From the NCBI GenBank assembly GCA_027484985.1, contig JAIXRW010000005.1, positions 95,378 to 159,377 of the forward strand: DNA of 64,000 bases. The letters are read 5' to 3'. The position numbers and the translations under genes were made by a program. Below the pieces are notes generated by a model. It did not search any database. It was not told where the DNA came from and saw nothing but the letters and a program-made list of their open reading frames with translations. Source of the stretch: Rhodobacter sp. (GTDB lineage: Bacteria; Pseudomonadota; Alphaproteobacteria; Rhodobacterales; Rhodobacteraceae). Shown piece after piece: positions 11,822-33,867 of the stretch (positions are counted from its first letter, which is position 1; each line of letters starts with the position of its first letter).

Positions 11822-13288
11822 ATGGACCGCTTCCAGCTTTACATCGACGGGCAGTTCTTGGACGGGGCGGCGTGGTTTCCCAGCCTTGACCCCGCCACGG
11901 GTGCCACATGGGCCGAGATGCCCGAGGCGCGCGAGGCCGAGGTGGATGCCGCCGTGCGGGCGGCGCATCGGGCGTTCCGGTCGGGGCCGTGGCCTGCGAT
12001 GACGGCAACGGCGCGCGGCAAGCTCTTGATGAAGCTGGCCGATCTGGTGCAGGCGGCGGCGCCTCGGCTGGCGGCGCTGGAGACGCGCGATACGGGCAAG
12101 ATCATTCGCGAGACATCGGCGCAGATTGCCTATGTGGCGGATTACTACCGCTATTATGCAGGGCTGGCCGACAAGATCGAAGGCGCGCATCTGCCCATCG
12201 ACAAGCCGGATATGGAAGTGTGGCTGCGGCGCGAACCGGTGGGGGTGGTGGCGGCCATCGTGCCGTGGAACAGCCAGTTGTTCCTGTCGGCGGTCAAGGT
12301 CGGACCTGCCCTTGCGGCGGGGTGCACGGTGGTGCTGAAGGCATCCGAGGATGGCCCCGCGCCGATGCTGGAATTTGCACGGCTGGTGCATGAGGCGGGG
12401 TTTCCGGCGGGTGTGTTCAATGTGGTCACGGGCTTTGGGCCCACCTGCGGGGCGGTGCTGGCGCGGCACCCGCTGGTGGACCATATCGCCTTTACCGGCG
12501 GGCCGGAAACGGCGCGGGCGGTGGTGCGGGGGTCGGCCGAGAACCTTGCCTCGACCTCGCTGGAACTGGGGGGGAAGTCGCCCTTTATCGTCTTTTCCGA
12601 TGCCGATCTGGACAGTGCCGCCAATGCGCAGGTGTCGGGGATTTTCGCCGCGACGGGGCAAAGCTGCGTGGCGGGGTCGCGGCTTCTGGTGCAGGCATCC
12701 GTCAAGGATGCCTTCCTTGCCAAGCTGAAAGCCAAGGCCGAGGCGATCCGCATCGCGGCGCCCGATGACATGGCAACCGAGGTGGGCCCCTTGTGCACGC
12801 GGCGGCAGCGCGACCGGATCGAGGCGCTGGTGGCGGAAAGCGTGGCGGCGGGGGCGCGGCTGGTGACGGGGGGCCACAGGATCGACGGCGCGGGGTTTTA
12901 TTACCCACCCACGATCCTTGATTGCAGCGCCGCCCCCGATGCGCCCTGCATCCGGCAGGAACTGTTCGGGCCTGTTCTGTCGGTGGTGTCGTTCGAGACA
13001 GAGGACGAGGCGCTGACAATTGCCAATGACAGCGCCTATGCCTTTGCGGCGGGGGTGTTCACCGCATCGCTGACGCGGGCGCACCGGATGATAAGGGGGC
13101 TGCGGGCGGGGGTGGTCTGGGTCAACACCTATCGCGCGGTATCGCCCATCGCGCCCTTTGGCGGGTCTGGCCTGTCGGGCCAAGGGCGCGAGGGGGGGCT
13201 GGCCGCGGCGCTGGATTACACCACGGTCAAGGCGGTATGGCTGCGTACTTCGGACGCGCCGATCCCTGACCCGTTCGTGATGCGCTAG
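11822..13288 (+). CDS. Aldehyde dehydrogenase family protein
   Basis: PWNSQLFLSAVKVGPALAAGCTVVLKASE; LELGGKSPFIVFSDADL; GQSCVAGSRLLVQ; PFGGSGLSGQGREGG. Confidence 0.92.
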   Translation: MDRFQLYIDGQFLDGAAWFPSLDPATGATWAEMPEAREAEVDAAVRAAHRAFRSGPWPAMTATARGKLLMKLADLVQAAAPRLAALETRDTGKIIRETSAQIAYVADYYRYYAGLADKIEGAHLPIDKPDMEVWLRREPVGVVAAIVPWNSQLFLSAVKVGPALAAGCTVVLKASEDGPAPMLEFARLVHEAGFPAGVFNVVTGFGPTCGAVLARHPLVDHIAFTGGPETARAVVRGSAENLASTSLELGGKSPFIVFSDADLDSAANAQVSGIFAATGQSCVAGSRLLVQASVKDAFLAKLKAKAEAIRIAAPDDMATEVGPLCTRRQRDRIEALVAESVAAGARLVTGGHRIDGAGFYYPPTILDCSAAPDAPCIRQELFGPVLSVVSFETEDEALTIANDSAYAFAAGVFTASLTRAHRMIRGLRAGVVWVNTYRAVSPIAPFGGSGLSGQGREGGLAAALDYTTVKAVWLRTSDAPIPDPFVMR

Positions 13289-13305
13289 GGGCGGCGGGGC
13301 AGGCG

Positions 13306-13548
13306 TTACAGCGCGTCGCGCATTGCGCGCTGGCTGCGGCGCATGCGGGCGCGCATTTCGCGCATGCGGAAGAACACGCCTGCGACCAGAAAGAACATCG
13401 CCACGAACATGAAGCCGCGCCACATGCCGTTATCGGGCGTTTCGGCGGGCAGCGAGCCGGTTACCTGCCACATCACGAACACCCCCGCGCCAAAGGCCAG
13501 CACGAAGCGGCGGATCATGCGGCAGGTGGCACAGGCGAGGCGGTCCAT
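13306..13548 (-). CDS. Small membrane protein of unknown function
   Basis: 80 aa with two hydrophobic segments (FVLAFGAGVFVMW, GFMFVAMFFLVAGVFF) and a basic C-terminus. Confidence 0.6.
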   Translation of the reverse strand: MDRLACATCRMIRRFVLAFGAGVFVMWQVTGSLPAETPDNGMWRGFMFVAMFFLVAGVFFRMREMRARMRRSQRAMRDAL

Positions 13549-13551
13549 CGC

Positions 13552-14745
13552 TTACTCCTTGTCAAATTCGATCTCGATCTCGATCCGCCGGTTTTTCTGG
13601 CGGCCCTCTTCGGTGGAGTTGTCGGCCACGGGTTCGGTTTCGCCCTTGCTGACGGCCACCAGTTCAGCTGCAGGAACCGTGCCACTTTCGGTGATGGCCC
13701 GCACCACGCTGGCCGCGCGGGCCGAGGCGAGTTCCCAGTTGTCGCGATAGGTCGAACCGGACAGGGGCACGTTATCGGTATGGCCGGTGACGACGATCTT
13801 GGCGGCCTTGCCCGATACCTGTTCCAGCTTGTCGATGATCGCCTGTGCCTGTGCGGTCATGTCGGCCGAGCCCGAGGCGAAGGCGCCGCCCGCGCCGACC
13901 GTCACCACGACCGATCCGTCGCGCTGTTCGACCTTGACATCGCCGCCGGCCATTTCCTCTTCCAGCGCCATGCCAAGCTTTACGGCTGCCATCTTGGCGC
14001 GGATCATCCCCACGCCCGACCCGTTGGCGGGCGCACCGCCGCCCGCATCACCGATGGCGGTGGCGGCATCCGGCGCGGCCGTTTCGGCTGCGGGGGCGGC
14101 GGCGGTCTGGGCGGCGGCCTGATCGGCTGCCGCGCTGCCGGCTGCTTGAAGCGCCTGCGCGATCTTTTCGGCATCGGCTTTGCTTGCGCCCTTGGGCAGG
14201 CGCACCGTGACGGAACCCGCCTCGCTTTCCACGGTCAGGCCCCCCTTGGCCACGGCATCCTGCATCGCCTTGGCCAGCGCCTTGGCGGCCTGATCGGCGG
14301 CATCGGCCCCCTGCCCCGCGCCGCCGCCCGGATTGCCGGTGCCTTCGGCCTTGCCGCTGTCGGGCTTGTCGGGGTCGCCCGATTGCGGCGTGGTTGCGGG
14401 CGGGTCGTTGGTCTGTTCGCCCGATTGCGGGCCGAAATGCAGATCGATGATCGAGGTGCCGCCCTTGTCGGCATCGTTGGGATCAAGCGGCACGCGCCCG
14501 AAGGTCTGGCGCATGACGGCGGCAAAGGCGTTGAACTTGGGCTGGTCGGTCTTGGCCGACATCAGCATGATGACGAAGAACGCCATGAGGAGCGTGGCCA
14601 TATCGGCGAATGTGATGATCCAGGGCGGGGGGCAATGGCCGCCGCCGCCGTGATCGTCATGCCCGCCGCCGCCGCCATGGCCGTGATCGGCGTCATGGTC
14701 GTGGTGGTCGTGATCGTGCCCGCCCTTTGCCGCTGCCTTTGCCAT
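13552..14745 (-). CDS. MotB/PomB-like flagellar motor protein with OmpA peptidoglycan-binding domain and His-rich N-terminus
   Basis: WIITFADMATLLMAFFVIMLMSA (MotB TM with conserved Asp); C-terminal VTGHTDNVPLSGSTYRDNWELASARAASVVRAI. Confidence 0.88.
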   Translation of the reverse strand: MAKAAAKGGHDHDHHDHDADHGHGGGGGHDDHGGGGHCPPPWIITFADMATLLMAFFVIMLMSAKTDQPKFNAFAAVMRQTFGRVPLDPNDADKGGTSIIDLHFGPQSGEQTNDPPATTPQSGDPDKPDSGKAEGTGNPGGGAGQGADAADQAAKALAKAMQDAVAKGGLTVESEAGSVTVRLPKGASKADAEKIAQALQAAGSAAADQAAAQTAAAPAAETAAPDAATAIGDAGGGAPANGSGVGMIRAKMAAVKLGMALEEEMAGGDVKVEQRDGSVVVTVGAGGAFASGSADMTAQAQAIIDKLEQVSGKAAKIVVTGHTDNVPLSGSTYRDNWELASARAASVVRAITESGTVPAAELVAVSKGETEPVADNSTEEGRQKNRRIEIEIEFDKE

Positions 14746-14747
14746 GG

Positions 14748-15512
14748 TCAGGCCGCCGCTGCCAGTTTGGCACGTTCTGCGGGCGGCAGGCGTGCGGCCA
14801 GACCGTCCATGATGACACGGGGCGCCTCGGCGCGGGCGATGCCGCGCAGGCCTTCGATCGCGGCTTCGCAATAGGCGACTTCGCGGGCGGTGTTGTTTTT
14901 CAGCTTGGTCGCCATCGGGCCGAAGAACACGTTGGCGGCAATGGCGCCATACATCGTGCCCACCAGCGCGGTGGCCATGCCCTTGCCCACGCTTGTCGGG
15001 TCGGACATGTTGCCCATCATCTCGACCAGTCCGATCAGGGTGCCGATCATCCCGTAAGCGGGGCCGAGTTCGACCCAGGCCTTGCAAACATCCTGCTTGG
15101 CGGAATGGCGCACCTTCATGGCGGCGATTTCGGCGTTGAGCTGTTTGGTCAGCTTTGCTTCGTCGGCGCCGTCGATCAGCATCTGCATGCCGCGTTCAAG
15201 GAATTTGTGCGGCATTTCCTTGCCTTCCAGCGCCATCAGACCGTCCTTGCGGGCGATGGTGGCAAGGTCGGACATGGTGACCGCAAGGGCAGCGATATCG
15301 GTATTGTGCTTTTTGAAGGCCGTTCCCATCGCCTTGAACGACCCCAGAAACACCTCCATCGGGGCGGTGTACATCACGGCGAAAAAACCGCCGACAAACA
15401 CGATGGTGAAACCGTGCATCGAGATGAAGGGCTCGATATGCCCGCCGGCCAGCATGGTGCCGACCACGGCGCAGATGCCGCCGAAAAACCCGATCGTCGT
15501 TGCCAGATCCAT
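14748..15512 (-). CDS. MotA/PomA-like proton channel protein
   Basis: MDLATTIGFFGGICAVVGTMLAGGHIEPFISMHGFTIVFVGGFFAVMYTAPME... and LGPAYGMIGTLIGLVEMMGNM. Confidence 0.88.
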   Translation of the reverse strand: MDLATTIGFFGGICAVVGTMLAGGHIEPFISMHGFTIVFVGGFFAVMYTAPMEVFLGSFKAMGTAFKKHNTDIAALAVTMSDLATIARKDGLMALEGKEMPHKFLERGMQMLIDGADEAKLTKQLNAEIAAMKVRHSAKQDVCKAWVELGPAYGMIGTLIGLVEMMGNMSDPTSVGKGMATALVGTMYGAIAANVFFGPMATKLKNNTAREVAYCEAAIEGLRGIARAEAPRVIMDGLAARLPPAERAKLAAAA

Positions 15513-21093: not shown

Positions 21094-22611
21094 ATGACCG
21101 CCGCCCCCCTGCCCCCGCAGCCCGTGCTGCGCCTGTCGGGCATATCGAAATCCTTTCCCGGCGTGCGCGCCCTGTCGGACGTTCAGCTTGACCTTTACGC
21201 AGGGCAGGTGACCGCGCTGATCGGTGAAAATGGCGCGGGCAAATCCACCATCGTCAAGGTGCTGACCGGCATATACCAGCCCGATGCGGGCCGGATCGAG
21301 GTGGATGGGGCACAGGTGCAATTTCCCACCGCCGATGCCGCGGCGCGTGCGGGTGTGACGGCGATCCATCAGGAAACGGTGCTGTTTGACGAATTGACCG
21401 TGGCCGAGAACATCTTTCTGGGCCATGCGCCGCGCACGCGCCTTGGTCTGATCGACTGGGTAGCGATGGAGGCGCAGGCGCGGGCGTTGCTGGACCGGAT
21501 CGGGGCCGATCTTGACCCGAGGCTGACCTTGCGCGAATTGGGCATCGCGTCGAAACACCTTGTCGCCATTGCGCGCGCGCTTTCGATCGATGCGCGGGTT
21601 GTCATCATGGACGAACCGACCGCCGCGCTGAGCCACAAGGAAATTCACGAGCTTTACGAACTGGTCGAACGGTTGAAGGCCGAGGGAAAGGCCATCCTGT
21701 TCATCTCTCACAAGTTTGACGAGATTTTCCGCATCGCGGACCGCTATACCGTGTTCCGCGATGGGGCCTTTATCGGCGCGGGGGCCATGGCCGATGTGAC
21801 CGAGGGGCAGTTGGTGCAGATGATGGTCGGCCGTTCGGTGGACCAGATCTTCCCCAAACGCGCCCATAACATCGGGGCGCCCGTGCTGACCGTGGCCGGA
21901 TACAGCCACCCGACCGAGTTCGAGGACATCAACTTTACCCTGCATCGTGGCGAAATCCTTGGGTTTTACGGCCTTGTCGGGGCCGGACGGTCCGAGGTGA
22001 TGCAGGCGTTGTTCGGCATCACCAAACCGTCAAAGGGCGCCTGCCGCATTGGCGACGGGGTGGCCGTGATCCGGTCAACCGCCGAGGCCATCGCGCAGGG
22101 CATTGTCTATGTGCCCGAGGATCGGGGCAAACAGGGCGCGGTCAAGGGATTGCCGATCTTCCAGAATGTCACCCTGCCCTCGCTTTCGCGCACATCGCGC
22201 GGCGGGTTCTTGCGGATGGCGGAAGAGTTCAAGCTGGCGCGCGATTACACGCGGCGGCTGGATTTGCGGGCGGCGAGCCTTGATCAGGATGTGGGGCTTT
22301 TGTCGGGGGGCAACCAGCAGAAGGTGGTGATCGCCAAATGGCTGGCGACCAAGCCCCGCGTCATCATTCTGGACGAACCGACCAAGGGCATCGACATCGG
22401 ATCGAAGGCGGCGGTGCATGACTTCATGGCCGAACTGGCCGCCGAAGGGTTGGCCGTGATCATGGTTTCCAGCGAAATCCCCGAAATCCTTGGCATGTCG
22501 GACCGCGTGATCGTCATGCGCGAAGGCCGGATTGCCGCCGAACTCACCGGGTCGGACATGACCCCCGAACGACTGGTCCGCGCCGCTGCGGGCATTGCCG
22601 AGGCCGCATGA
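21094..22611 (+). CDS. rhaT: Rhamnose ABC transporter ATP-binding protein (double ATPase)
   Basis: GENGAGKST; VVIMDEPTAALSHKE; LLSGGNQQKVVIAKWL; VIILDEPTKGIDIGSK. Confidence 0.92.
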   Translation: MTAAPLPPQPVLRLSGISKSFPGVRALSDVQLDLYAGQVTALIGENGAGKSTIVKVLTGIYQPDAGRIEVDGAQVQFPTADAAARAGVTAIHQETVLFDELTVAENIFLGHAPRTRLGLIDWVAMEAQARALLDRIGADLDPRLTLRELGIASKHLVAIARALSIDARVVIMDEPTAALSHKEIHELYELVERLKAEGKAILFISHKFDEIFRIADRYTVFRDGAFIGAGAMADVTEGQLVQMMVGRSVDQIFPKRAHNIGAPVLTVAGYSHPTEFEDINFTLHRGEILGFYGLVGAGRSEVMQALFGITKPSKGACRIGDGVAVIRSTAEAIAQGIVYVPEDRGKQGAVKGLPIFQNVTLPSLSRTSRGGFLRMAEEFKLARDYTRRLDLRAASLDQDVGLLSGGNQQKVVIAKWLATKPRVIILDEPTKGIDIGSKAAVHDFMAELAAEGLAVIMVSSEIPEILGMSDRVIVMREGRIAAELTGSDMTPERLVRAAAGIAEAA

Positions 22612-23582
22612 ACCGTTTGCTCAAATCCCGCGAGGTGCTGCTGGCCCTTGCCATCCTTGCGCTGCTGGCGGTGATCGCCACGCGCTTTCCGGCCTTTATC
22701 GCGCCGGGGAACCTGACCAATGTGTTCAACGACACGGCACCGCTGATCATTCTGGCGCTGGGGCAGATGATCGTGATTTTGACGAAATGCATCGATCTGT
22801 CGGTGGCGGCCACGCTGGCCCTGTGCGGGATGGTGGCGGCGATGCTGGATGGCGCGGGGGTTCCGCTGGCGCTGATCCTGCCTGCGGCGCTGGTGCTGGG
22901 CGCGGCCCTTGGGGCGGTGAACGGGCTTTTGGTGTGGAAGGTCGATATTCCGCCCATCGTGGTGACGCTGGGCACGATGACGATCTATCGCGGGATCATC
23001 TTCCTGATTTCCGACGGGAGATGGATCAACGCCCACCAGATGACCGCCGGATTCAAGGATTTGCCGCGGACCGAGGTGCTGGGCCTGCATGTCATGTCGT
23101 GGATCGCGCTGGCGGTGATCGGGGGGGCTTATGTCCTTTTGAACCGCACGGCTTTGGGGCGCAGTTTCTTTGCCGTGGGTGGCAACCCGCATGCCGCCGT
23201 CTATACCGGCATCGATGTGGGGCGCATGCAGGCGGTGGCCTTTGTGCTGTCAGGCGCGCTGGCGGGGCTGACGGGCTATCTGTGGGTTGCGCGCTATGCG
23301 GTGGCCTATGTCGATGTGGCGGGCGGGTTCGAGCTGGATGTGGTGGCCGCCTGCGTGATCGGCGGGGTTGCCATCGCGGGGGGCGCGGGGTCGGTTGCGG
23401 GGGCGGTGCTGGGCGCGCTGTTTCTGGGCGTGATCAAGAACGCGCTTCCCGTCGTGGGCATTTCGCCCTTCTGGCAATTGGCGATTTCGGGCAGCGCCAT
23501 CATCATCGCGGTTGCCTTCAACGCGCGTCAGGGCCGCGCCCGTGGCCGCATCATCCTTAAATCCGCCGAGCACCGCGCATGA
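22608..23582 (+). CDS. rhaP: Rhamnose ABC transporter permease
   Basis: Multi-TM BPD_transp_2 type permease (IVILTKCIDLSVAATLALCGM, VVAACVIGGVAIAGGAGSVAGAVLGALFLGVIKNALPVVGI). Confidence 0.9.
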   Translation: MNRLLKSREVLLALAILALLAVIATRFPAFIAPGNLTNVFNDTAPLIILALGQMIVILTKCIDLSVAATLALCGMVAAMLDGAGVPLALILPAALVLGAALGAVNGLLVWKVDIPPIVVTLGTMTIYRGIIFLISDGRWINAHQMTAGFKDLPRTEVLGLHVMSWIALAVIGGAYVLLNRTALGRSFFAVGGNPHAAVYTGIDVGRMQAVAFVLSGALAGLTGYLWVARYAVAYVDVAGGFELDVVAACVIGGVAIAGGAGSVAGAVLGALFLGVIKNALPVVGISPFWQLAISGSAIIIAVAFNARQGRARGRIILKSAEHRA

Positions 23583-24571
23583 GTGACGCCAGCCATACCC
23601 CCCGCATCATTCCCGACCGGCTGACAAGCCCGCTGACCCGCGCCCTGCGGTCATGGGAGGCGCTGCTGGTCGTGGTTGCCGTGGCGGTGTTCATCGCCAA
23701 TTCCATCGCCTCGCCCTATTTCCTTGATGCGTGGAACCTGTCGGACGCGACCTTTAACTTTACCGAAAAGGCGATGATCGCCTTTGCCATGGCGATGCTG
23801 ATCATCGCGGGCGAGATCGACCTTTCGGTCGCCTCGATCATCGCGCTGGCCTCGACCGCGATGGGGATCGTGATGACGGCGGGTTTCGGCACGCCCGCCA
23901 TTGTGGCGACCGGCATCGGGGTGGGCGTGCTGTGCGGGGCGCTGAACGGGTTTTTCGTGGCGCGGCTTGGCCTGCCGTCAATCGTGGTGACCATCGGCAC
24001 GATGAGCCTGTTTCGCGGCATCAGCTATATCGTGCTGGGGGATCAGGCCTTTACCGGCTATCCCGACAGCTTCGCCTATTTCGGGCAGGGCTATGTCTGG
24101 TGGGTGTTCAGCTTTGAGCTGGTGCTGTTTGCCGCGCTGGCCTTGGGGTTCTATGTGCTGCTGCACCGCACGAATTTTGGCCGGTCGGTCTATGCCATCG
24201 GCAACAACCCCATGGCGGCGCTGTTTTCGGGCATCCGCGTGAACCGGGTGCGGTTCATCCTGTTCTTGCTGACGGGGCTGATGTCGGGGATTGCGGCGGT
24301 GTGCCTGACCTCGCGCCTTGGGTCCACCCGCCCGTCGATTGCGACGGGGATGGAGTTGGAGGTGGTCACGATGGTCGTGCTTGGCGGGGTAAACATCCTG
24401 GGCGGGTCGGGCACCATTCCGGGCGTGGTGCTGGCGGCGGTCATCATGGGGCTTGTCACCTTTGGGTTCGGGCTGCTCAATGTGCCGGGGATCGTGATGT
24501 CGATCTTTCTTGGCCTGCTGCTGATTGGCGTGATTGCCGTGCCCCGCCTGATTGCACGGATGAGGAGATGA
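23579..24571 (+). CDS. rhaQ: Rhamnose ABC transporter permease
   Basis: [69 protein letters not shown]. Confidence 0.9.
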
Positions 24572-24885
24572 TGCAGAAACACGCCTTCAAGATGCACCTG
24601 AACCCCGGTTGCGAGGCCGAGTATCGCAAGCGGCATGACGAGATATGGCCCGAACTGGTGGCGCTGCTGAAGGGCGCGGGGGTAAGCGATTATTCGATCC
24701 ATCTGGATGCCGAAACGAATACCCTGTTCGGCGTGCTGTGGCGCAGCGATGACCATGGCATGGATGATCTGCCGCAAAGCCCGGTGATGCAGCGCTGGTG
24801 GGCGCATATGGCCGATATCATGGCGACGAATGACAGGAACGAACCCCTGGCCACGCCGCTGCAACCCGTGTTCCACATGCCATGA
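24568..24885 (+). CDS. rhaU: L-rhamnose mutarotase
   Basis: [57 protein letters not shown]. Confidence 0.9.
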
Positions 24886-26249
24886 GGCATATCGCCGTCA
24901 TCGACATCGGCAAGACCAATGCCAAGCTGGCGCTGGTCGATCTGGCCTTGCGGGCCGAGATTGCGGTGACCACGCGGCCCAACAGGGTGGTGGCAGCCCC
25001 CCCCTACCCCCATTTTGATACCGAGGGGCATTGGCAATTCCTGCTCGCCGCATTGCGCGATTTCCACGCGCAGCACGGGGTGGATGCGATTTCCGTCACC
25101 ACCCATGGCGCGGCGGCGGCGCTGCTGGCGGCGGACGGGTCGCTGGCGGCACCGGTGCTTGATTATGAACATACCGGTCCCGACGATCTGGCGGCCGAAT
25201 ATGACGCGCTGCGCCCGCCCTTTGCCGAAACCGGATCGCCGCGCCTGCCGATGGGGTTGAACCTTGGCGCGCAGTTGCATTGGCAATTCGCCACCGATCC
25301 CGCTTTGCGCGGGCGCACGGCGCATATCGTCACCTATCCGCAATACTGGGGCTTTCGCCTGACCGGACAGGTGGCGAGTGACGTGACCAGTATCGGCTGC
25401 CACACCGATCTGTGGAACCCGCATGAGGGGCGGTTTTCGGCGCTGGTGGACCGGCTGGGAATTGCGGGCAAGCTGGCGCGCACCCGCGCCTCGGGCGAGG
25501 TGCTGGGCACGGTTCTGCCTGCGGTTGCCGCTGCGACGGGCCTGCCTTTGGGGACGCCGGTTGCCACGGGGATCCATGACAGCAACGCCTCGCTTCTGCC
25601 GCATCTGGTGGACCGGCCGGCGCCGTTTGCGGTTGTCTCGACCGGGACATGGGTGATTTCGATGGCGGTGGGCGGGGCCAAGGTGCCGCTTGATCCGGCG
25701 CGCGATACGCTGGTGAATGTGAATGCCTTTGGCCAGCCGGTGCCATCGGCGCGGTTCATGGGCGGGCGGGAATACGAGATGCTGCGCCAGCCCGCCGCGC
25801 CGGATGACGGCGATCTGGCCGTCGTGCTGGAACAGGGGCTGATGCTGCTGCCCGCAACGCAACAAGGCAGCGGGCCTTTCCCGCAGGCGCGGGCGCGCTG
25901 GCATCCAGGCGAACCCGAAAGCCCCGCCCTGCGCGAGGTGGCCTTGGGCCATTACCTTGCGCTGATGACAGCCGAATGTCTGGCCATGATCGGGGCCGAA
26001 GGGCCGACGCTGGTGGAAGGGCCGTTCGGTCAGAACCGCTGGTTCACCGCGATGCTGGCGGCGGCAACGGGGCGGGCGGTTGCCACCTCGGCCTCGCAGA
26101 CAGGCACGGCGATCGGGGCGGCGCTGCTGTTCGGGGCTTCTGGCAGGGTGGACGCGGCGGCACCCGCAGGCGGAACCGGCGATCCGGTAAGGCAGGCGGC
26201 CTTGGCGCGGTTGGCGGACAGGTGGCGCCGCGCCTGCGCCGCGGGTTGA
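24882..26249 (+). CDS. rhaK: Rhamnulokinase-like FGGY family carbohydrate kinase
   Basis: [65 protein letters not shown]. Confidence 0.88.
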
Positions 26250-26329
26250 GCGGCGCGCAACTTCTGCTTGCCCACCTTTGGAGTAGCGTGCTGTAACCAT
26301 TGTTACCAGGTTGCAACGGCGGAGTGCTT

Positions 26330-28276
26330 ATGCCCACCAGATATGCCCGGATACGCGATGCGGGCAAGCGCAGTTCGCGGCTTGCCGTTGCTGTGTGTCT
26401 GGCCATGGCGGCCACCTTTATCGGCAGCCTGACGGCGCTGGGTGTCGCCCTTTATGACCGCAGCGCATCGGATGCGCGCAGCATGGCGGTGGCGTTGCAG
26501 CAATATGCCTTGCGGACGGTGACAACGGGCGAGCTGGCCGCCGAAACGGTGGCCGAGGCGATCCGCACCCGTGGCGGAATGGCGGGCATGGTCGATGACC
26601 GGGCGCTGCATGATCTGCTGGCCGGTCTGTCGGCGCGCCTGCCCGACGGGGCGGGGCTGCTGGTGGTGGACGCGCAGGGCAAGGTCGTGTCGAGCTATGC
26701 CGAATTTCCAGCCCGCCCCATCGACCTTTCAGACCGCGAATGGTTCATCGCGCAGCGCAAGACGGGCGCCGATTTCCTGCTGAGCGAGGCCCTGCTAGGG
26801 CGGCTGACCCAGCGCAAGATGTTCATCCTGACCAAATCGGTGCGGATCGGTGGCCAGTTGCAGGCGGTGGTCAATCTGGGCCTGCCTTCGGATGCGCTGA
26901 TCGGGGATCAGGCCTTGCCGATCTATGCCGATGGCGTGGTGCTGAGCCTGATGAAACCCGATGGCGCGATCCTTGCGCGCAGCGATTTTCCCGACGGCCT
27001 GCTGGGCACCAAGCTTTCGGTGCGCGACGGGGCCGAGGATGCGCTGCATGTGCTGCGCGCGCGCGATGTGGACCACCGCCCCGCCATCGAGGCGACCGAT
27101 AGCGAACCGCGTTACGGGTTGGTGGCGCGGGCCTCGATTCCGCTGGTGCAGGCGTTCGGGCCGTTGCTGGTGCTGTCGGGGATCGGTCTGCCGCTGGTGA
27201 TTGCCATGATGGTGGCGACGTTCCGGCTGATCCGGTCAGTGGCGGCGCAGAACCGTGCGTTGGGGGAAACCACGGCCCGCCTGCGCGTGGTGCTTGACGC
27301 AGCGCATCTGGGAACGTGGCATCTTGATGTGGCCAGCGGCGCATCGGACATGAACGAACGCTGGGCGCGGATCGTCGGGCATGAACCCGGCGAGGTGCCC
27401 AATTCATCCGAGGAATGGGCCAGCCGGTTGCATCCGGATGAACGCGAAACCGTGCTGGCGGCGCTGGACGACATGCTGGCGGGCCGGACGCCGCTGATGA
27501 ATATCGAACACCGTTTGCGCCACAAGGACGGGCATTGGGTCTGGGTGCTGGATTCGGGCTGTGTGGTCGAACGCGATGGCGCGGGCCATGCCGTCACCGC
27601 CACCGGCACGCTGCTGGACATTTCCGAACGGCGCGAGACCGAGCGGCGGATCGGCATGTTGATGGGCGAGGTGGACCACCGGTCAAAGAACCTGCTGGCG
27701 GTGGTGCAATCGCTGGTCAACCTGATGCCCGCCGAGGATGTGGCGACCTTCAAGACCACGTTGCAGGGCCGGATCAAGGCGCTGGGGCATGTACATTCGC
27801 TGCTGTCCGAGGCGGGCTGGCAGGGCGTGGGGATCGACCGGCTGATCGGGACCGAGACGATGCCCTATCAGTCGGACCAGCCGCCCCGCATCTGGCGGAA
27901 AGGCCCCGAAGTAACGCTGCGGCCTGCGGCGGCGCAGGCGCTGGCGATGGTGGTGCATGAACTGATGACCAATTCGGCCAAATATGGCGCGCTTTCCGCA
28001 GCCACGGGCGAGGTTGGCATTGACTGGCACATGACCGGGGCCGATGCGGAAAAGCCTGCCGCGCTGCATTTGCGCTGGCAGGAAAGCGGCGGACCGGCCG
28101 TGACGCCCCCCCAGCGGCAGGGGTTCGGTGCGCGCCTGCTGGGGGCGCTGGTGCGCGAGCAGATGGAGGGCACGCTGGAACAGGACTGGCCCGCAAGCGG
28201 GGCTGTCATCCGCCTGACATTGCCCTTGGCCGCGATCCTGCCGGTGGGAACGCGCGGGTTCGACCCGCGCCGCTGA
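26330..28276 (+). CDS. Sensor histidine kinase of the HWE/HisKA_2 type with periplasmic Cache-like sensor and PAS domain
   Basis: N-terminal TM plus extracytoplasmic domain; PAS GTWHLDVASGASDMNERWARIVGHEPGEVP; H-box GEVDHRSKNLLAVVQSLVNL; MVVHELMTNSAKYGALS. Confidence 0.88.
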   Translation: MPTRYARIRDAGKRSSRLAVAVCLAMAATFIGSLTALGVALYDRSASDARSMAVALQQYALRTVTTGELAAETVAEAIRTRGGMAGMVDDRALHDLLAGLSARLPDGAGLLVVDAQGKVVSSYAEFPARPIDLSDREWFIAQRKTGADFLLSEALLGRLTQRKMFILTKSVRIGGQLQAVVNLGLPSDALIGDQALPIYADGVVLSLMKPDGAILARSDFPDGLLGTKLSVRDGAEDALHVLRARDVDHRPAIEATDSEPRYGLVARASIPLVQAFGPLLVLSGIGLPLVIAMMVATFRLIRSVAAQNRALGETTARLRVVLDAAHLGTWHLDVASGASDMNERWARIVGHEPGEVPNSSEEWASRLHPDERETVLAALDDMLAGRTPLMNIEHRLRHKDGHWVWVLDSGCVVERDGAGHAVTATGTLLDISERRETERRIGMLMGEVDHRSKNLLAVVQSLVNLMPAEDVATFKTTLQGRIKALGHVHSLLSEAGWQGVGIDRLIGTETMPYQSDQPPRIWRKGPEVTLRPAAAQALAMVVHELMTNSAKYGALSAATGEVGIDWHMTGADAEKPAALHLRWQESGGPAVTPPQRQGFGARLLGALVREQMEGTLEQDWPASGAVIRLTLPLAAILPVGTRGFDPRR

Positions 28277-28437: not shown

Positions 28438-30333
28438 ATGTTGAGCATGCGTGCAAATCCTGTGGTCCCGCAGACCGCGACCGGGCCTGTGGGTCAGGCC
28501 TGCGGGATTTTGCTGGTGCTGCTGGTGCTTTTGGCCCTGCTGTGGTCGCGCCTGATCCATGCCCATGATCATGCAGATTTTGCATTCTTGGTGGATGCCG
28601 ACCGCAGCCTTTCGGCCAATGACATGGCGCGGCAAGATTTTCGGCCGGTCCATTCCACCTTTGGCGGCGGGCTTGAAGATACGGCCATTTGGCTTCGCGT
28701 CACCTTCGGCGCGACCGACCCTGCGCCGGTGTTGCTGCGGTTCCTGCCCGGAACGACCAAGCGGATCATCCTGTATTCCCCGATCGGTGACGGCGGATGG
28801 CGCGTGTCGCAGACCGGCACGACCGCCATTGCCACGGCCGATGTGCATAGCCGCTTTGGCTGGACCGGATTTGTCATCGACCCAAAGGCGGGCGGACGGC
28901 CCTATTATGCGCAGATCGAAAAGAATACGCCGGGCGCGGTTCTGGTCGATGCCCTGCCTGTCGGGGACGAAACCCGATTTCATCTGCGCGACGCGGCAGC
29001 CAGCGCGATGGCGCTGTCTGTCACCGTCTTTGCCATCGTGCTGGTGGCGCATCGCTTCACCCCGCTGACATCTTTGCCGCATTTCAGCTATCTGGCACTT
29101 CTGATCAGCAATGCCCTGTATCTGCTTGGTTTCGAAGGCTATCTTGTGCCCGCGATCGGCATTGACGGGCAGCTGGCCGAGGCGGTGCATTTCAATGTCG
29201 GGCTGGCGTCGATGATCAGCCTGCTTGGCTTTCACCTGCTGTTCCTGCGCGATTACGGGCCACCGCGGTTTCTTGTCCGTATCCTGCAAGGGCTTTTCAT
29301 CGCCAGTATCGCCGCCGCGCTGCTCTATGCTGCCGATGCGAAACGGGTGGCAACCATTGTGGCGGTGGGCAGCCATACCTTGGGTCTTGTCGTGCTTTTT
29401 GCCATGGTGCTGTGCCTGCGTGCCGATGGAGCGATACCGCGGGCGCAGGTGCGGCTGGTCTATCTGGGCTATCTGGGCGGGCTTGCGCTGAACGTCGCCT
29501 TGCGGACCGGTCTGGTCGAGTCTGAATTGCTGTTCCGCAACAGCTTTGAAATCGTGGCGCTGCTCAGCTCGACCTTGATCCTTGCGCTGATGTGGTTGCA
29601 GAACCGCGCTGCGGCCGAAGAAGATTTGGGGCGCGAGGTGGCGCTGGCGGGGCTGTCGGCCGATCTGAAGATCGCGCAAAGCTATAGCGACCTGCGCTTT
29701 GGCCTGATGCGCGAGATCGACACCCTGTCGCAACAACTGGCGCAAGAGACCGAAGCCGCCATCGCCGCCAACAGCTTTGCGCTGGATGGGCCCAAAGCGG
29801 CGCGGTCGGCATCGGCGCTGCGGGCGGTGATCGAACGCTGCCTGTTCGCGCATACGGCCGCAACCGGCGCGTGGAACGTGACGCGGACGGTGTTTTCACC
29901 CGCGCGGCTGTTGCGCGAGATTGCGCTGGGGCTGGCGCCGGCGGCGCGCTGGAAGCTGGACCTTGGGCTGTTCATGGTCGAATCCGATCCGGGCCTGGTG
30001 GATCTGGCGCTGCGCAACGTGCTGGCCAACGCGCTGCGCTATTGTGATGAAGGGCGGGTCGAGGTTCGGCTGCAACAGATGATGCGCGGCGGTGAATCGG
30101 GGGCGCTGGTGACGCTGACGAACCTGTCGGCGCTGGCCGAGCCTTTTGACAGCGACCGTGTCTTTGACAAATTCTATCGCGGTGCGTCATCGGCGGGGCG
30201 GGGCGGCACGGGCCTTGGCCTTTACATCACGCGCGAGGTGGTGACGGCCCTGTCGGGCGAGGTGACGCTGCAAAGCCGACCCGAGGGCGCCGGATCGGTG
30301 GTGATGACGCAGATATGGATCCCCGACCGATGA
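28438..30333 (+). CDS. 7TMR-DISM-type histidine-kinase-like protein with intact HATPase but no recognisable phospho-acceptor His
   Basis: 7TMR-DISM extracellular domain and multiple TMs. N-box VDLALRNVLANALRYCDEG, G2 box GGTGLGLYITREVV. H-box position reads LMREIDTL. Confidence 0.82.
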   Translation: MLSMRANPVVPQTATGPVGQACGILLVLLVLLALLWSRLIHAHDHADFAFLVDADRSLSANDMARQDFRPVHSTFGGGLEDTAIWLRVTFGATDPAPVLLRFLPGTTKRIILYSPIGDGGWRVSQTGTTAIATADVHSRFGWTGFVIDPKAGGRPYYAQIEKNTPGAVLVDALPVGDETRFHLRDAAASAMALSVTVFAIVLVAHRFTPLTSLPHFSYLALLISNALYLLGFEGYLVPAIGIDGQLAEAVHFNVGLASMISLLGFHLLFLRDYGPPRFLVRILQGLFIASIAAALLYAADAKRVATIVAVGSHTLGLVVLFAMVLCLRADGAIPRAQVRLVYLGYLGGLALNVALRTGLVESELLFRNSFEIVALLSSTLILALMWLQNRAAAEEDLGREVALAGLSADLKIAQSYSDLRFGLMREIDTLSQQLAQETEAAIAANSFALDGPKAARSASALRAVIERCLFAHTAATGAWNVTRTVFSPARLLREIALGLAPAARWKLDLGLFMVESDPGLVDLALRNVLANALRYCDEGRVEVRLQQMMRGGESGALVTLTNLSALAEPFDSDRVFDKFYRGASSAGRGGTGLGLYITREVVTALSGEVTLQSRPEGAGSVVMTQIWIPDR

Positions 30334-32219
30334 CGGCGCTGGCCCGCCTTGCGATACGGTTGGGCGCGGGCGCTGCGCTGGCGGCGTTGGTCGGGCTGTA
30401 TATGGCTGCGATCTTTGCGACCGATCCTGACGCGCGCCTGCTGGGCGACATCGGCCACAGGGCCGACCGGGGCGGGGCGATGACGGTCGATGACATAGCG
30501 GCGGGGCCGTTCACGCCATCAGGCCCTGCCTATCGGGGCGGCTATGACCAAGCGGTGCATTGGTTCCGCATCACGATCAACCCGTCGGTGCCGCCCGCGC
30601 CGATTGTGCTGGACGTGACGCCGCCGGTGCTGGAACAGCTGGACCTTTATCTTCCGGCTGCGCTGCCGGGACAGTGGGAGGTGATGCGAACAGGCAGCCT
30701 TGTGCCCTATTCGCAGCGCGACCTGCGTCAGGCCGGGTTGGCCTTTCGCTTGGGCCTGCTGACCGTGCCGAAAACGGTCTATCTGCGGGTGGCGACCGAT
30801 ACGTCAACCGCGCTGACCCTGTCGGCCAGCCCCGAGCGGTTGGCCCAGAACCGGCAAGACCGGCTGGTCGCGCTGCATATGATCTTTTTCGCGCTGCTTT
30901 TCGCGGGGCTGCTGATGGCGCTGCTGCGGCTGGCCGAGCAGCCGGCACGGTTGTCGGTCGCACTGGTCGGGTTCATGGCGGTTTACATCGTCTATTCGGT
31001 CGAGGCGCTGGGATATGGCGCGCTGCTGTTTGACGCGCCGGTTCCTGCCTTTCATCACCGGGTCTATTTCCTGTCCACCTATCTGGTGCTTTTGCTGTCG
31101 ATGCTGTTCCAGCGCCTTTACCTTGCGCCGCATAGCAATGCGGGCTGGGCGCTCTTGTGGTGCGATCTGGCCATCGGGGGGCAGGTCGTGCTGTTCGTGC
31201 CGCTGCTGACGGGGCATATCCAACTGCTGGCGGCGGCAAGTGTTGCCTGTTCGATGGCCTTTCTTTGCGCGTTGGTGCCGCTGGTGATTTCGGCCCATGT
31301 GCCCGTGCGGCGGGTGAAACGGGGGCTGGTGCTGGCCTATGGGGTCTATGTCGTGCTGTCGGCCACATGGCTGATGTCGCGCATCGGGGTGATCCGCGAT
31401 CCCTTTCTGTCGCGCCATCTGGTCGAGGCGTTTGGCCTGACCAACCTGTTTCTTGTACTGCTTTTGACCATGCTGGACCGCGATGAACAGGCCGAGCGGC
31501 AGAAAAGCGTGCGGATCAACTTTGCCACCGCCCGCGCCGCGCGCGAGGCCCATGCCCGCAATGCCGAGATACAGGAAAATTTCTTGCAGATGCTGATGCA
31601 CGAGGTGCGAAACCATTTGTCGGTGCTGAAACTTAGCCTGCCCGATCTGATCGACCGCCGCCGCCGCGCAAGGCTGACGGGCACGATCCATGACCTGACG
31701 GACAGTCTCGACAAGGCGCAGGAAATGGTGTGGCTGGTGCAGGGCACATGGCCGCTGCATCCCGAACCGCTGCCGGTGCTTGACCTGCTTGGCCAGTCGA
31801 TCGACGCGCTTGGGCTGGCGGAACGGGTCGATGCGGCGGGCGATGCGGCCGAAGCGGTGCTGACCGCCGACCGGCGCATGATTCAGGCGCTGTTCACCCG
31901 CCTGCTGCAAGCGGCCGCCAGCCGTGCGGGGCCTGCGGGCAAGATCACCGTCACGCTGACCGAGGCGGGCGCGGGCGGCGCGCTGACCTTGGGCATTGCC
32001 GTCGCCCCCGATGCGGCCGATGCCGCGCCTTTTGCCGATGACGGGCACCCGCCCTGCCCCGAGCTTGACCTTGCCTTGCGTCTGGCGCATGCGGCGGGGG
32101 CTGATGTCCTTCGGCCCGAGGGCGACGCAGGGCGGTTTGACCTGATGCTGGTCTTTCCGCACCCGACCCTGCCCGCACATAACCGCCTTTCGCCCTCTTT
32201 TGCCGGACTTCCCGAATGA
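30330..32219 (+). CDS. 7TMR-DISM-type histidine-kinase-like protein with intact H-box but degenerate HATPase
   Basis: 7TMR-DISM N-terminus and TMs. H-box QENFLQMLMHEVRNHLSVLKLSL. ATP-binding motifs not recognisable in the C-terminus (MIQALFTRLLQAAASRAGPAGKITVTL...). ATGA overlap with the previous gene. Confidence 0.8.
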   Translation: MTALARLAIRLGAGAALAALVGLYMAAIFATDPDARLLGDIGHRADRGGAMTVDDIAAGPFTPSGPAYRGGYDQAVHWFRITINPSVPPAPIVLDVTPPVLEQLDLYLPAALPGQWEVMRTGSLVPYSQRDLRQAGLAFRLGLLTVPKTVYLRVATDTSTALTLSASPERLAQNRQDRLVALHMIFFALLFAGLLMALLRLAEQPARLSVALVGFMAVYIVYSVEALGYGALLFDAPVPAFHHRVYFLSTYLVLLLSMLFQRLYLAPHSNAGWALLWCDLAIGGQVVLFVPLLTGHIQLLAAASVACSMAFLCALVPLVISAHVPVRRVKRGLVLAYGVYVVLSATWLMSRIGVIRDPFLSRHLVEAFGLTNLFLVLLLTMLDRDEQAERQKSVRINFATARAAREAHARNAEIQENFLQMLMHEVRNHLSVLKLSLPDLIDRRRRARLTGTIHDLTDSLDKAQEMVWLVQGTWPLHPEPLPVLDLLGQSIDALGLAERVDAAGDAAEAVLTADRRMIQALFTRLLQAAASRAGPAGKITVTLTEAGAGGALTLGIAVAPDAADAAPFADDGHPPCPELDLALRLAHAAGADVLRPEGDAGRFDLMLVFPHPTLPAHNRLSPSFAGLPE

Positions 32220-32920
32220 CCCAGAACCGCCCCCTGATCGCCGTGATCGAAGACAATGCCGATCTGAACGGTATTCTTGTCCATGCGCTGCGCGCGGCGG
32301 GATATGCGGCCGAGGGTCATCTGACCGTCGAAGACCTGGAAGCCGCCGAAGAACAGCCCGATCTGTATCTTTTGGACCTGAACTTGCCCGGCGAGGATGG
32401 GTTGAGCTTTGCCCGCCGCCTGCGGCTGACGCGGCCGCAAGCCGGGATCGTGATGCTGACCGCCCGCAACGAGATGGACCAGCGCCGCCGTGGCTATGAC
32501 AGCGGGGCGGATATCTATCTGTCAAAGCCAAGTTCGGTTGATGAAATTCTGGGGGCGATCGGCGCGCTGTCGCGGCGGTTGGCGCCTGCGGGGGCGCCGC
32601 AACCCGACGAGGGGCAGCCGGTTCTTGTGCTGTCGCCGCGCAGGCTGGAAATTACCGGACCCGGGGGCAGCGTTTCGGTCACGGCGGGCGAAGCGGCGGT
32701 GCTGGCCCATTGCGCGGCCGACCCGGACGGGCGCATCAGCCTTGACGCCTTTCACGATGCCATGCCCGACGGGCGCGACCTGTCGAAAGTGGCCATAGAA
32801 TTGAAGATCGTCCGCTTGCGCAAGAAACTGGCGGGCATCGGGTTTGACGGGCGCAGCATCGGATCGGTGCGGAATTTCGGCTATCAGCTGCTTGTGCCGG
32901 TGCGGATTGCCCAGACCTGA
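32216..32920 (+). CDS. Response regulator, receiver plus winged-helix (OmpR/PhoB-like)
   Basis: IEDNADL, YLLDLNLPGEDGLSFARRLR, VMLTAR, YLSKPS; C-terminal KIVRLRKKLAGIGFDGRSIGSVRNFGYQL. Confidence 0.9.
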   Translation: MTQNRPLIAVIEDNADLNGILVHALRAAGYAAEGHLTVEDLEAAEEQPDLYLLDLNLPGEDGLSFARRLRLTRPQAGIVMLTARNEMDQRRRGYDSGADIYLSKPSSVDEILGAIGALSRRLAPAGAPQPDEGQPVLVLSPRRLEITGPGGSVSVTAGEAAVLAHCAADPDGRISLDAFHDAMPDGRDLSKVAIELKIVRLRKKLAGIGFDGRSIGSVRNFGYQLLVPVRIAQT

Positions 32921-33192
32921 CGGCATTGACACAATAGGCCAGAAGCGGCGCGGGGCCGAACATACCACGGGTCAACACAACACATGGCCCCGACGCACGA
33001 CATCCGGCCAAACAAAACGGCCGCATCACCACCTAATGCCGCGCGATACACGAGACCGCCCGAGGGCGCGCGAAGGTCACGGAAGGGTTTTGAAGGTTTT
33101 ATCAAGATTTGTAAACAGCTTTGCGCGCGGGAAAGGTGCAAAGATCGTCCCCTGTTGCGCGCCTGCGGCGGCGCCCCCCGCCATAATGAAAA

Positions 33193-33222
33193 CGCCCCTG
33201 CCAGAACGTTCTGGCAGGGGCG
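33193..33222 (-). terminator. Rho-independent terminator downstream of sodB
   Basis: Perfect 30-bp palindrome CGCCCCTGCCAGAACGTTCTGGCAGGGGCG followed on the minus strand by TTTTCATTATGG. Confidence 0.85.
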
Positions 33223-33264
33223 CTGCAATGGGCGGTCGGATGCGGGCCACAGCCCGCCCGCGCC

Positions 33265-33867
33265 TTACATGCGGGCGGCGACGGCTTCCCAGTTGACCAG
33301 TTTTTCAAGGAAATTGGTCAGATAGGCGGGGCGCTTGTTGCGGAAGTCGATGTAGTAGGAATGTTCCCAGACGTCACACCCCAGAAGCGCGGTCTGGCCG
33401 AAGCACAGCGGGTTCACACCGTTTTCGGTCTTGGTGATTTTCAGCGCGCCGTCCTTGTCACGCACCAGCCACGCCCAGCCCGAACCGAACTGGCCCGCAC
33501 CGGCGGCGGCGAAGTCTTCCTTGAACTTGGCGACCGAACCGAAGGATTCGGTGAGCGCCTTTTCCAGCGCGCCGGGCATCGCCTTGTTCTCGCCCGGACC
33601 CATCACTTCCCAGAACAGGTTGTGGTTCCAGTGCTGGCTGGCATTGTTGAAGATGCCGTTCTGCGCCACGGCGCCGGCCTGATAGGTGCCGCGCACGATA
33701 TCGTCGAGCGATTTTCCTTCCCACTCGGTCCCGGCGATCAGCTTGTTGCCGTTGTCGACATAGGCTTTGTGGTGCAGGTCGTGGTGGAATTCGAGCGTTT
33801 CGCGCGACATGCCCAAGGGGGCAAGCGCGTCATGCGAATAGGGCAGATCGGGAAGGGTGAAGGCCAT
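33265..33867 (-). CDS. sodB: Fe/Mn superoxide dismutase
   Basis: MAFTLPDLPYSHDALAPLGMSRETLEFHHDLHHKAYVDNGN; LLGCDVWEHSYYIDFRNKRPAYLTNF. Confidence 0.95.
   Translation of the reverse strand: MAFTLPDLPYSHDALAPLGMSRETLEFHHDLHHKAYVDNGNKLIAGTEWEGKSLDDIVRGTYQAGAVAQNGIFNNASQHWNHNLFWEVMGPGENKAMPGALEKALTESFGSVAKFKEDFAAAGAGQFGSGWAWLVRDKDGALKITKTENGVNPLCFGQTALLGCDVWEHSYYIDFRNKRPAYLTNFLEKLVNWEAVAARM

Follow-up and report, generated by a model that had tools for sequence, protein, structure and literature searches.

Reciprocal motif loss in a tandem pair of 7TMR-DISM receptor kinases suggests a histidine kinase split between two duplicated membrane proteins

The window (the whole stretch of DNA that was analysed, 64,000 nucleotides) carries three consecutive genes, designated A, B and R, that are predicted to encode two receptor-kinase-like membrane proteins and one response regulator:

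28438..30333, forward strand: gene A, 631 aa; DISMED2 and 7TMR-DISM receptor, DHp domain without His, intact-looking HATPase_c domain (open reading frame, Pfam, AlphaFold2)
30330..32219, forward strand: gene B, 629 aa; DISMED2 and 7TMR-DISM receptor, His-bearing DHp domain, degenerate ATPase domain (open reading frame, Pfam, AlphaFold2)
32216..32920, forward strand: gene R, 234 aa; OmpR/PhoB-type response regulator (open reading frame; Pfam Response_reg, 2.4e-18)

The coordinates of the reading frames confirm the three overlapping genes described in an initial annotation of this DNA, with ATGA overlaps at the A/B joint (ATG at 30330) and the B/R joint (32216); an alternative, longer reading frame of B starts at 30315. 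Judged by Pfam and structural models, A and B share one architecture: an extracellular DISMED2 domain, seven predicted transmembrane helices, a long helix that continues into the DHp hairpin and, at the C terminus, an ATPase-like domain. DISMED2 exceeded the Pfam cut-off in A, B and every orthologue. Promoter and terminator scans at the locus revealed nothing above shuffled sequence.

We characterized protein A by domain searches, alignment with its orthologues and modelling, which placed the following features:

28576..28929, forward strand: 7TMR-DISMED2 extracellular domain of A, aa 47-164 (Pfam PF07696, 3.2e-8)
28960..29607, forward strand: seven-transmembrane region of A, approximately aa 175-390 (model helices; weak Pfam PF07695 match, E=0.12, 12.7 bits)
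29710..29724, forward strand: H-box position of A without His, aa 425-429, REIDT (His in 0/4 orthologues in either register)
30016..30045, forward strand: N-box of A, NVLANALRYC, aa 527-536 (Asn527 and Asn531 invariant in 4/4 A orthologues)
30121..30123, forward strand: D-box position of A, Asn562, with the next glycine, that of the G1 box, lost (alignment)
30163..30222, forward strand: F-box FDKFYRG, aa 576-582, and G2 box GGTGLGL, aa 589-595, of A (kept in 4/4 A orthologues)

Protein A matched HATPase_c (5e-14) and not HisKA in Pfam. Its AlphaFold2 model (mean pLDDT 85) contains a DHp hairpin (residues 363–476) and the ATPase fold, and comparison of the model with solved structures showed that the ATPase domain resembles MprB (6blk; target TM 0.80). 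The earlier proposal that A keeps its ATP-binding motifs is borne out by the N-box, F-box and G2 box of all four A orthologues. The same annotation had read an Arg at the H-box; the lack of His stands, but the identity of the replacing residue depends on the register (Arg425 or Thr429), the four orthologues having R/K/R/Q in the Arg425 register and T/R/T/A in the MAFFT column of Thr429. No conserved cytoplasmic His was found in the alignment of the four A proteins. The Asn at the D-box is common to 13/13 tabulated single-gene relatives (kinases of this family encoded by one gene) from Gemmobacter and betaproteobacteria and aligns with an Asn of CusS (7zp0), so this change in A is ordinary. The G1-box glycine, which the single-gene relatives keep, is absent from 4/4 A proteins, a loss that the initial annotation missed and that may alter or weaken ATP binding by A.

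Protein B has the complementary set of features:

30462..30824, forward strand: 7TMR-DISMED2 extracellular domain of B, aa 45-165 (Pfam PF07696, 1.5e-19)
30834..31484, forward strand: seven-transmembrane region of B, approximately aa 169-385 (Pfam PF07695, 2.9e-6, under the cut-off at 27.8 versus 29 bits; model helices)
31569..31637, forward strand: H-box of B, aa 414-436, with His424-Glu425-x-x-Asn428 (H, E and N invariant in 4/4 orthologues; 67% mean pairwise identity)
31755..32159, forward strand: ATPase remnant of B, aa 476-610 (N-box Asn replaced, F-box and ATP lid deleted and G2 lost in 4/4 orthologues; 34% mean identity)

The good H-box previously noticed in B is thus shared, as H-E-x-x-N, by all four B orthologues; in other kinases, these residues serve as the general base and in phosphatase activity. 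The loss of the N-box Asn and glycine boxes, also proposed earlier, holds for 4/4 B proteins. Neither HATPase_c nor HisKA was detected in B at E<=10 (Pfam), a sequence search of solved structures with B returned nothing meaningful and a search of a plasmid collection with B gave no match; the AlphaFold2 model of B had a mean pLDDT of 86.

All phospho-site residues are present in the regulator, including the acceptor:

32375..32377, forward strand: phospho-acceptor Asp54 of R (invariant in seven aligned regulators)

Residues E12-D13, T82 and K104 are likewise conserved among the seven regulators. The Trans_reg_C match of R was weak (6e-5, slightly under the Pfam cut-off).

The A-B-R triple was found in 4 of 19 Gemmobacter genomes (that of the window, G003, G008 and G013), with the genes overlapping or touching in each. 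Neither A nor B has the orthodox layout with His and ATPase on one polypeptide. His occupies the H-box column in all B proteins and all single-gene relatives and in none of the four A proteins; the second N-box Asn is present in all A proteins and all single-gene relatives and is replaced in the four B proteins (A/A/G/A); and the G2 glycines (GGG) of all A proteins and single-gene relatives are lost in all B proteins. Pfam matches followed the same division, with HATPase_c and no HisKA in A orthologues, and no HATPase_c and a weak HisKA match in two of three B orthologues; the single-gene relatives tested had HATPase_c, together with HisKA matches in 3/4, all below the curated cut-off. The initial annotation had suggested asking whether the His loss in A and the N- and G-box losses in B co-occur across orthologues, and they do so in every triple found. 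Reciprocal loss in 4/4 triples (all from one genus) whose A and B proteins are only 33–40% identical, against 0/17 single-gene homologues, is more than expected by chance. Considering these data, A and B are probably subfunctionalized duplicates between which a single receptor histidine kinase is divided, working as an obligate A:B pair. Counted in favour of a split kinase are the reciprocal loss, co-inheritance, the common descent of A and B, reciprocal constraint, the complete phospho-site of R, the structural match of the A ATPase and the biochemical precedents CheA3/CheA4 and FasB/FasC; the missing G1 glycine in 4/4 A proteins counts against it.

No genome among the 19 of the genus has A without B or B without A, and a search of 396 further genomes sampled from the family returned no B. 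All 17 single-gene relatives retain both the His and the ATPase motifs, and the regulator adjoins the kinase in 16 of them; such pairs occur in other Gemmobacter genomes, Burkholderiales and Rhodocyclus. Rhodocyclus purpureus has two kinase/regulator pairs of this single type, facing each other within 7 kb (L046:6749-9447 and 13036-15462). Whether the triple and the single type exclude each other in the genus was also considered, but at 4 and 6 of 19 genomes the pattern is not significant.

The triple is flanked by three different sets of genes in the four genomes, suggesting that it is kept, or moves, as a unit. The neighbours are rhamnose-type sugar uptake genes and a superoxide dismutase in the window, a luciferase-like monooxygenase in G008, and glucose/sorbosone dehydrogenase-like and LysR genes in G003 and G013; no common target was indicated by neighbouring genes across these three settings. 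In the window, positions 22608-26249, upstream of the triple, encode sugar ABC permeases (ribose/arabinose/AI-2 type), a small protein, which we take to be a rhamnose mutarotase, and an FGGY kinase. Just upstream of A (26300-28276) is a Cache-PAS-HWE family histidine kinase (H-box EVDHRSKNLL) that is not homologous to A or B and has no apparent adjacent regulator of its own. On the other side of the triple, a strong inverted repeat (33191-33224; 15 pairs and, on the minus strand, a short run of T) is likely the terminator of a superoxide dismutase-like frame at 33265, the repeat being downstream of that frame.

The apparent constraint on the two proteins is reciprocal, each being constrained mainly at its surviving half. 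Among the four A orthologues, the ATPase core has a mean pairwise identity of 53%, compared with 38% in DHp helix 1; in B, the H-box (67%) is the best conserved of the stretches measured, compared with 32% in the part of the ATPase remnant that matches the core of A. By a simple counting method, and at high synonymous divergence, dN/dS of the closest pair was 0.32 for the ATPase and 0.54 for the DHp domain of A, and 0.21 for the DHp domain and 0.69 for the remnant of B; the other pair showed a smaller contrast in B (0.35 and 0.48) and none in A (0.38 and 0.37). Both proteins evolve fast relative to R (33–40% versus 64–68% identity across the four triples), as might be expected if the locus were decaying through random loss in redundant duplicates and no longer signalled; given the open reading frames, conserved coupling, reciprocal retention of motifs and dN/dS <1 in four lineages, we regard decay as very improbable. 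Another explanation is that A is a pseudokinase that tunes B or R allosterically, with B phosphorylated by another kinase or acting mainly as a phosphatase of R. The G1 loss in all A proteins fits such a role, structural comparisons of A and of B both returned DivL and RetS, which are examples of allosteric pseudokinases, and a phosphatase would be compatible with H-E-x-x-N in B. However, cytoplasmic constraint in A is strongest at the N-box, F-box and G2 box, which look catalytic, and the invariant His-Glu of B is not obviously needed by a pure phosphatase, which makes this explanation unlikely.

To place the two proteins relative to the single-gene kinases, we used a maximum-likelihood tree, which recovered an A clade (100/100) and a B clade (100/100) as sisters (98/96) outside the single-gene relatives (98/96). 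The window paired with G008, and G003 with G013, in both A and B, more weakly in B (85/71 for the window and G008). Trees in which A alone or B alone was forced to group with the Gemmobacter single-gene kinases were rejected (AU p ~0.02). The simplest reading of the tree and these rejections is that A and B arose by one duplication that predated the split of these species, with the caveat that the long stem branches of A and B could attract each other.

A survey of DISMED2 proteins was used to look for other tandem 7TMR-DISM kinases in Alphaproteobacteria. One pair (G451, L091:5407-9557) has complete motifs in both copies. In two species of one genus (G676, L092:7885-12023; G1104, L095:5040-9076), tandem kinases overlap by 4 bases; the first is intact, and the second keeps His but has the second N-box Asn changed to Thr and has lost the D-box and two G2 glycines. 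Judged by these motifs, the latter pair is a putative independent half-way split resembling FasC. In the tree, both sets derive from duplications separate from that of A and B. Tandem DISMED2 pairs in G1021 and G1027 were rejected as kinases, being diguanylate cyclases, and a further pair in G791 had no matches to the A/B kinase family. Complementary breakage of both partners was found only in the system of the window among the tandem pairs surveyed.

In the split-kinase scheme that we favour, an ancestral single-gene 7TMR-DISM kinase beside its regulator would have been duplicated in tandem, after which the phospho-acceptor His was lost from A and ATP binding from B, with the complete receptor, coiled linker and DHp hairpin kept in both copies. 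In the working form, A would pair with B in the membrane as a heterodimer (or as A2:B2) whose DHp bundle is built from both proteins; A would use its ATPase to phosphorylate His424 of B in trans, and the phosphate would pass to Asp54 of R. B may also dephosphorylate R through H-E-x-x-N. Given that A and B both derive from a homodimeric kinase, a mixed DHp dimer is the simplest geometry; it assumes that the DHp domain of A, which has diverged, pairs with that of B. Alternatively, A and B could form separate homodimers, with A acting in a cluster as a soluble-like trans-kinase for B and no mixed bundle being formed. CheA3 and CheA4 work in this way (PMC3591291), and the full DHp hairpins in both models could homodimerize. 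Yet the membrane-tied ATPase of A would then need to reach the His of another dimer, and a tandem origin from one homodimer would make the mixed dimer the simpler path, so we hold separate homodimers to be improbable. If A and B do heterodimerize, it is conceivable, as a tentative extension, that both 7TMR-DISM sensors must be engaged, so that duplication and reciprocal degeneration of a receptor kinase would have produced an AND gate that reads two ligands or two states.

Nearly all bacterial sensor kinases are homodimers and, to our knowledge, the evolution of obligate heterodimeric kinases has so far been treated mainly in theory. The sequences described here show the probable type of ancestor, the reciprocal outcome in four species and, in other lineages, unrelated tandem pairs (both copies intact, or one intact and one ATPase-dead), so that the steps from duplication through degeneration to complementation become testable for a signalling enzyme. 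We know of no earlier split kinase between two 7TMR-DISM receptors, and none was found in the open-licence literature searched. The single-gene 7TMR-DISM kinases adjacent to OmpR-type regulators (L029-L033 and L039-L048; Gemmobacter and Burkholderiales) share the DISMED2-7TM-DHp-ATPase layout and full-length homology with A and B, but carry the His and ATPase motifs on one protein, whereas in the window these are divided over two duplicates. Rv0600c/Rv0601c/TcrA of Mycobacterium tuberculosis comprises two incomplete kinases and one regulator, and would represent the splitting of one short kinase rather than the duplication of a full receptor.

In Rhodobacter sphaeroides, neither CheA3 nor CheA4 autophosphorylates alone, one supplying the ATPase and the other the phospho-His, and theory predicts that a split kinase that also acts as a phosphatase can yield switch-like or bistable responses (PMC3591291). 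Unlike A and B, which are membrane receptors with DHp domains, CheA3 and CheA4 are cytoplasmic chemotaxis proteins of the HPt type that are missing whole domains. Hik36/Hik43 of Synechocystis, termed a split histidine kinase, acts on Rre6 (PMC7656254); it differs from A/B in being a divided CheA, whose HPt and catalytic portions are encoded by genes that are far apart. The Pseudomonas 7TMR-DISM protein RetS heterodimerizes with the sensor kinase GacS (PMC12189002), but RetS inhibits an otherwise complete kinase with no division of labour, and GacS is not a 7TMR-DISM protein. The novelty claimed in the initial annotation therefore narrows: no 7TMR-DISM pair was found, but RetS/GacS and a hetero-kinase of two membrane sensor-kinase-like proteins, FasB/FasC of group A Streptococcus, were already known (PMC12675982 for the latter). 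Two-hybrid analysis of FasB and FasC gave heteromers and not homomers, and the ATPase of FasC is dispensable whereas its H246 is needed (PMC12675982). By analogy, FasB/FasC/FasA is the closest functional parallel to A/B/R, with a single regulator and, side by side, two membrane proteins that resemble sensor kinases. It differs in having another sensor type, an unrelated origin and one partner with a dispensable half (FasB keeps a candidate His), whereas A and B are both broken, reciprocally, making them an unusually clean reciprocal case among split and hetero histidine kinases.
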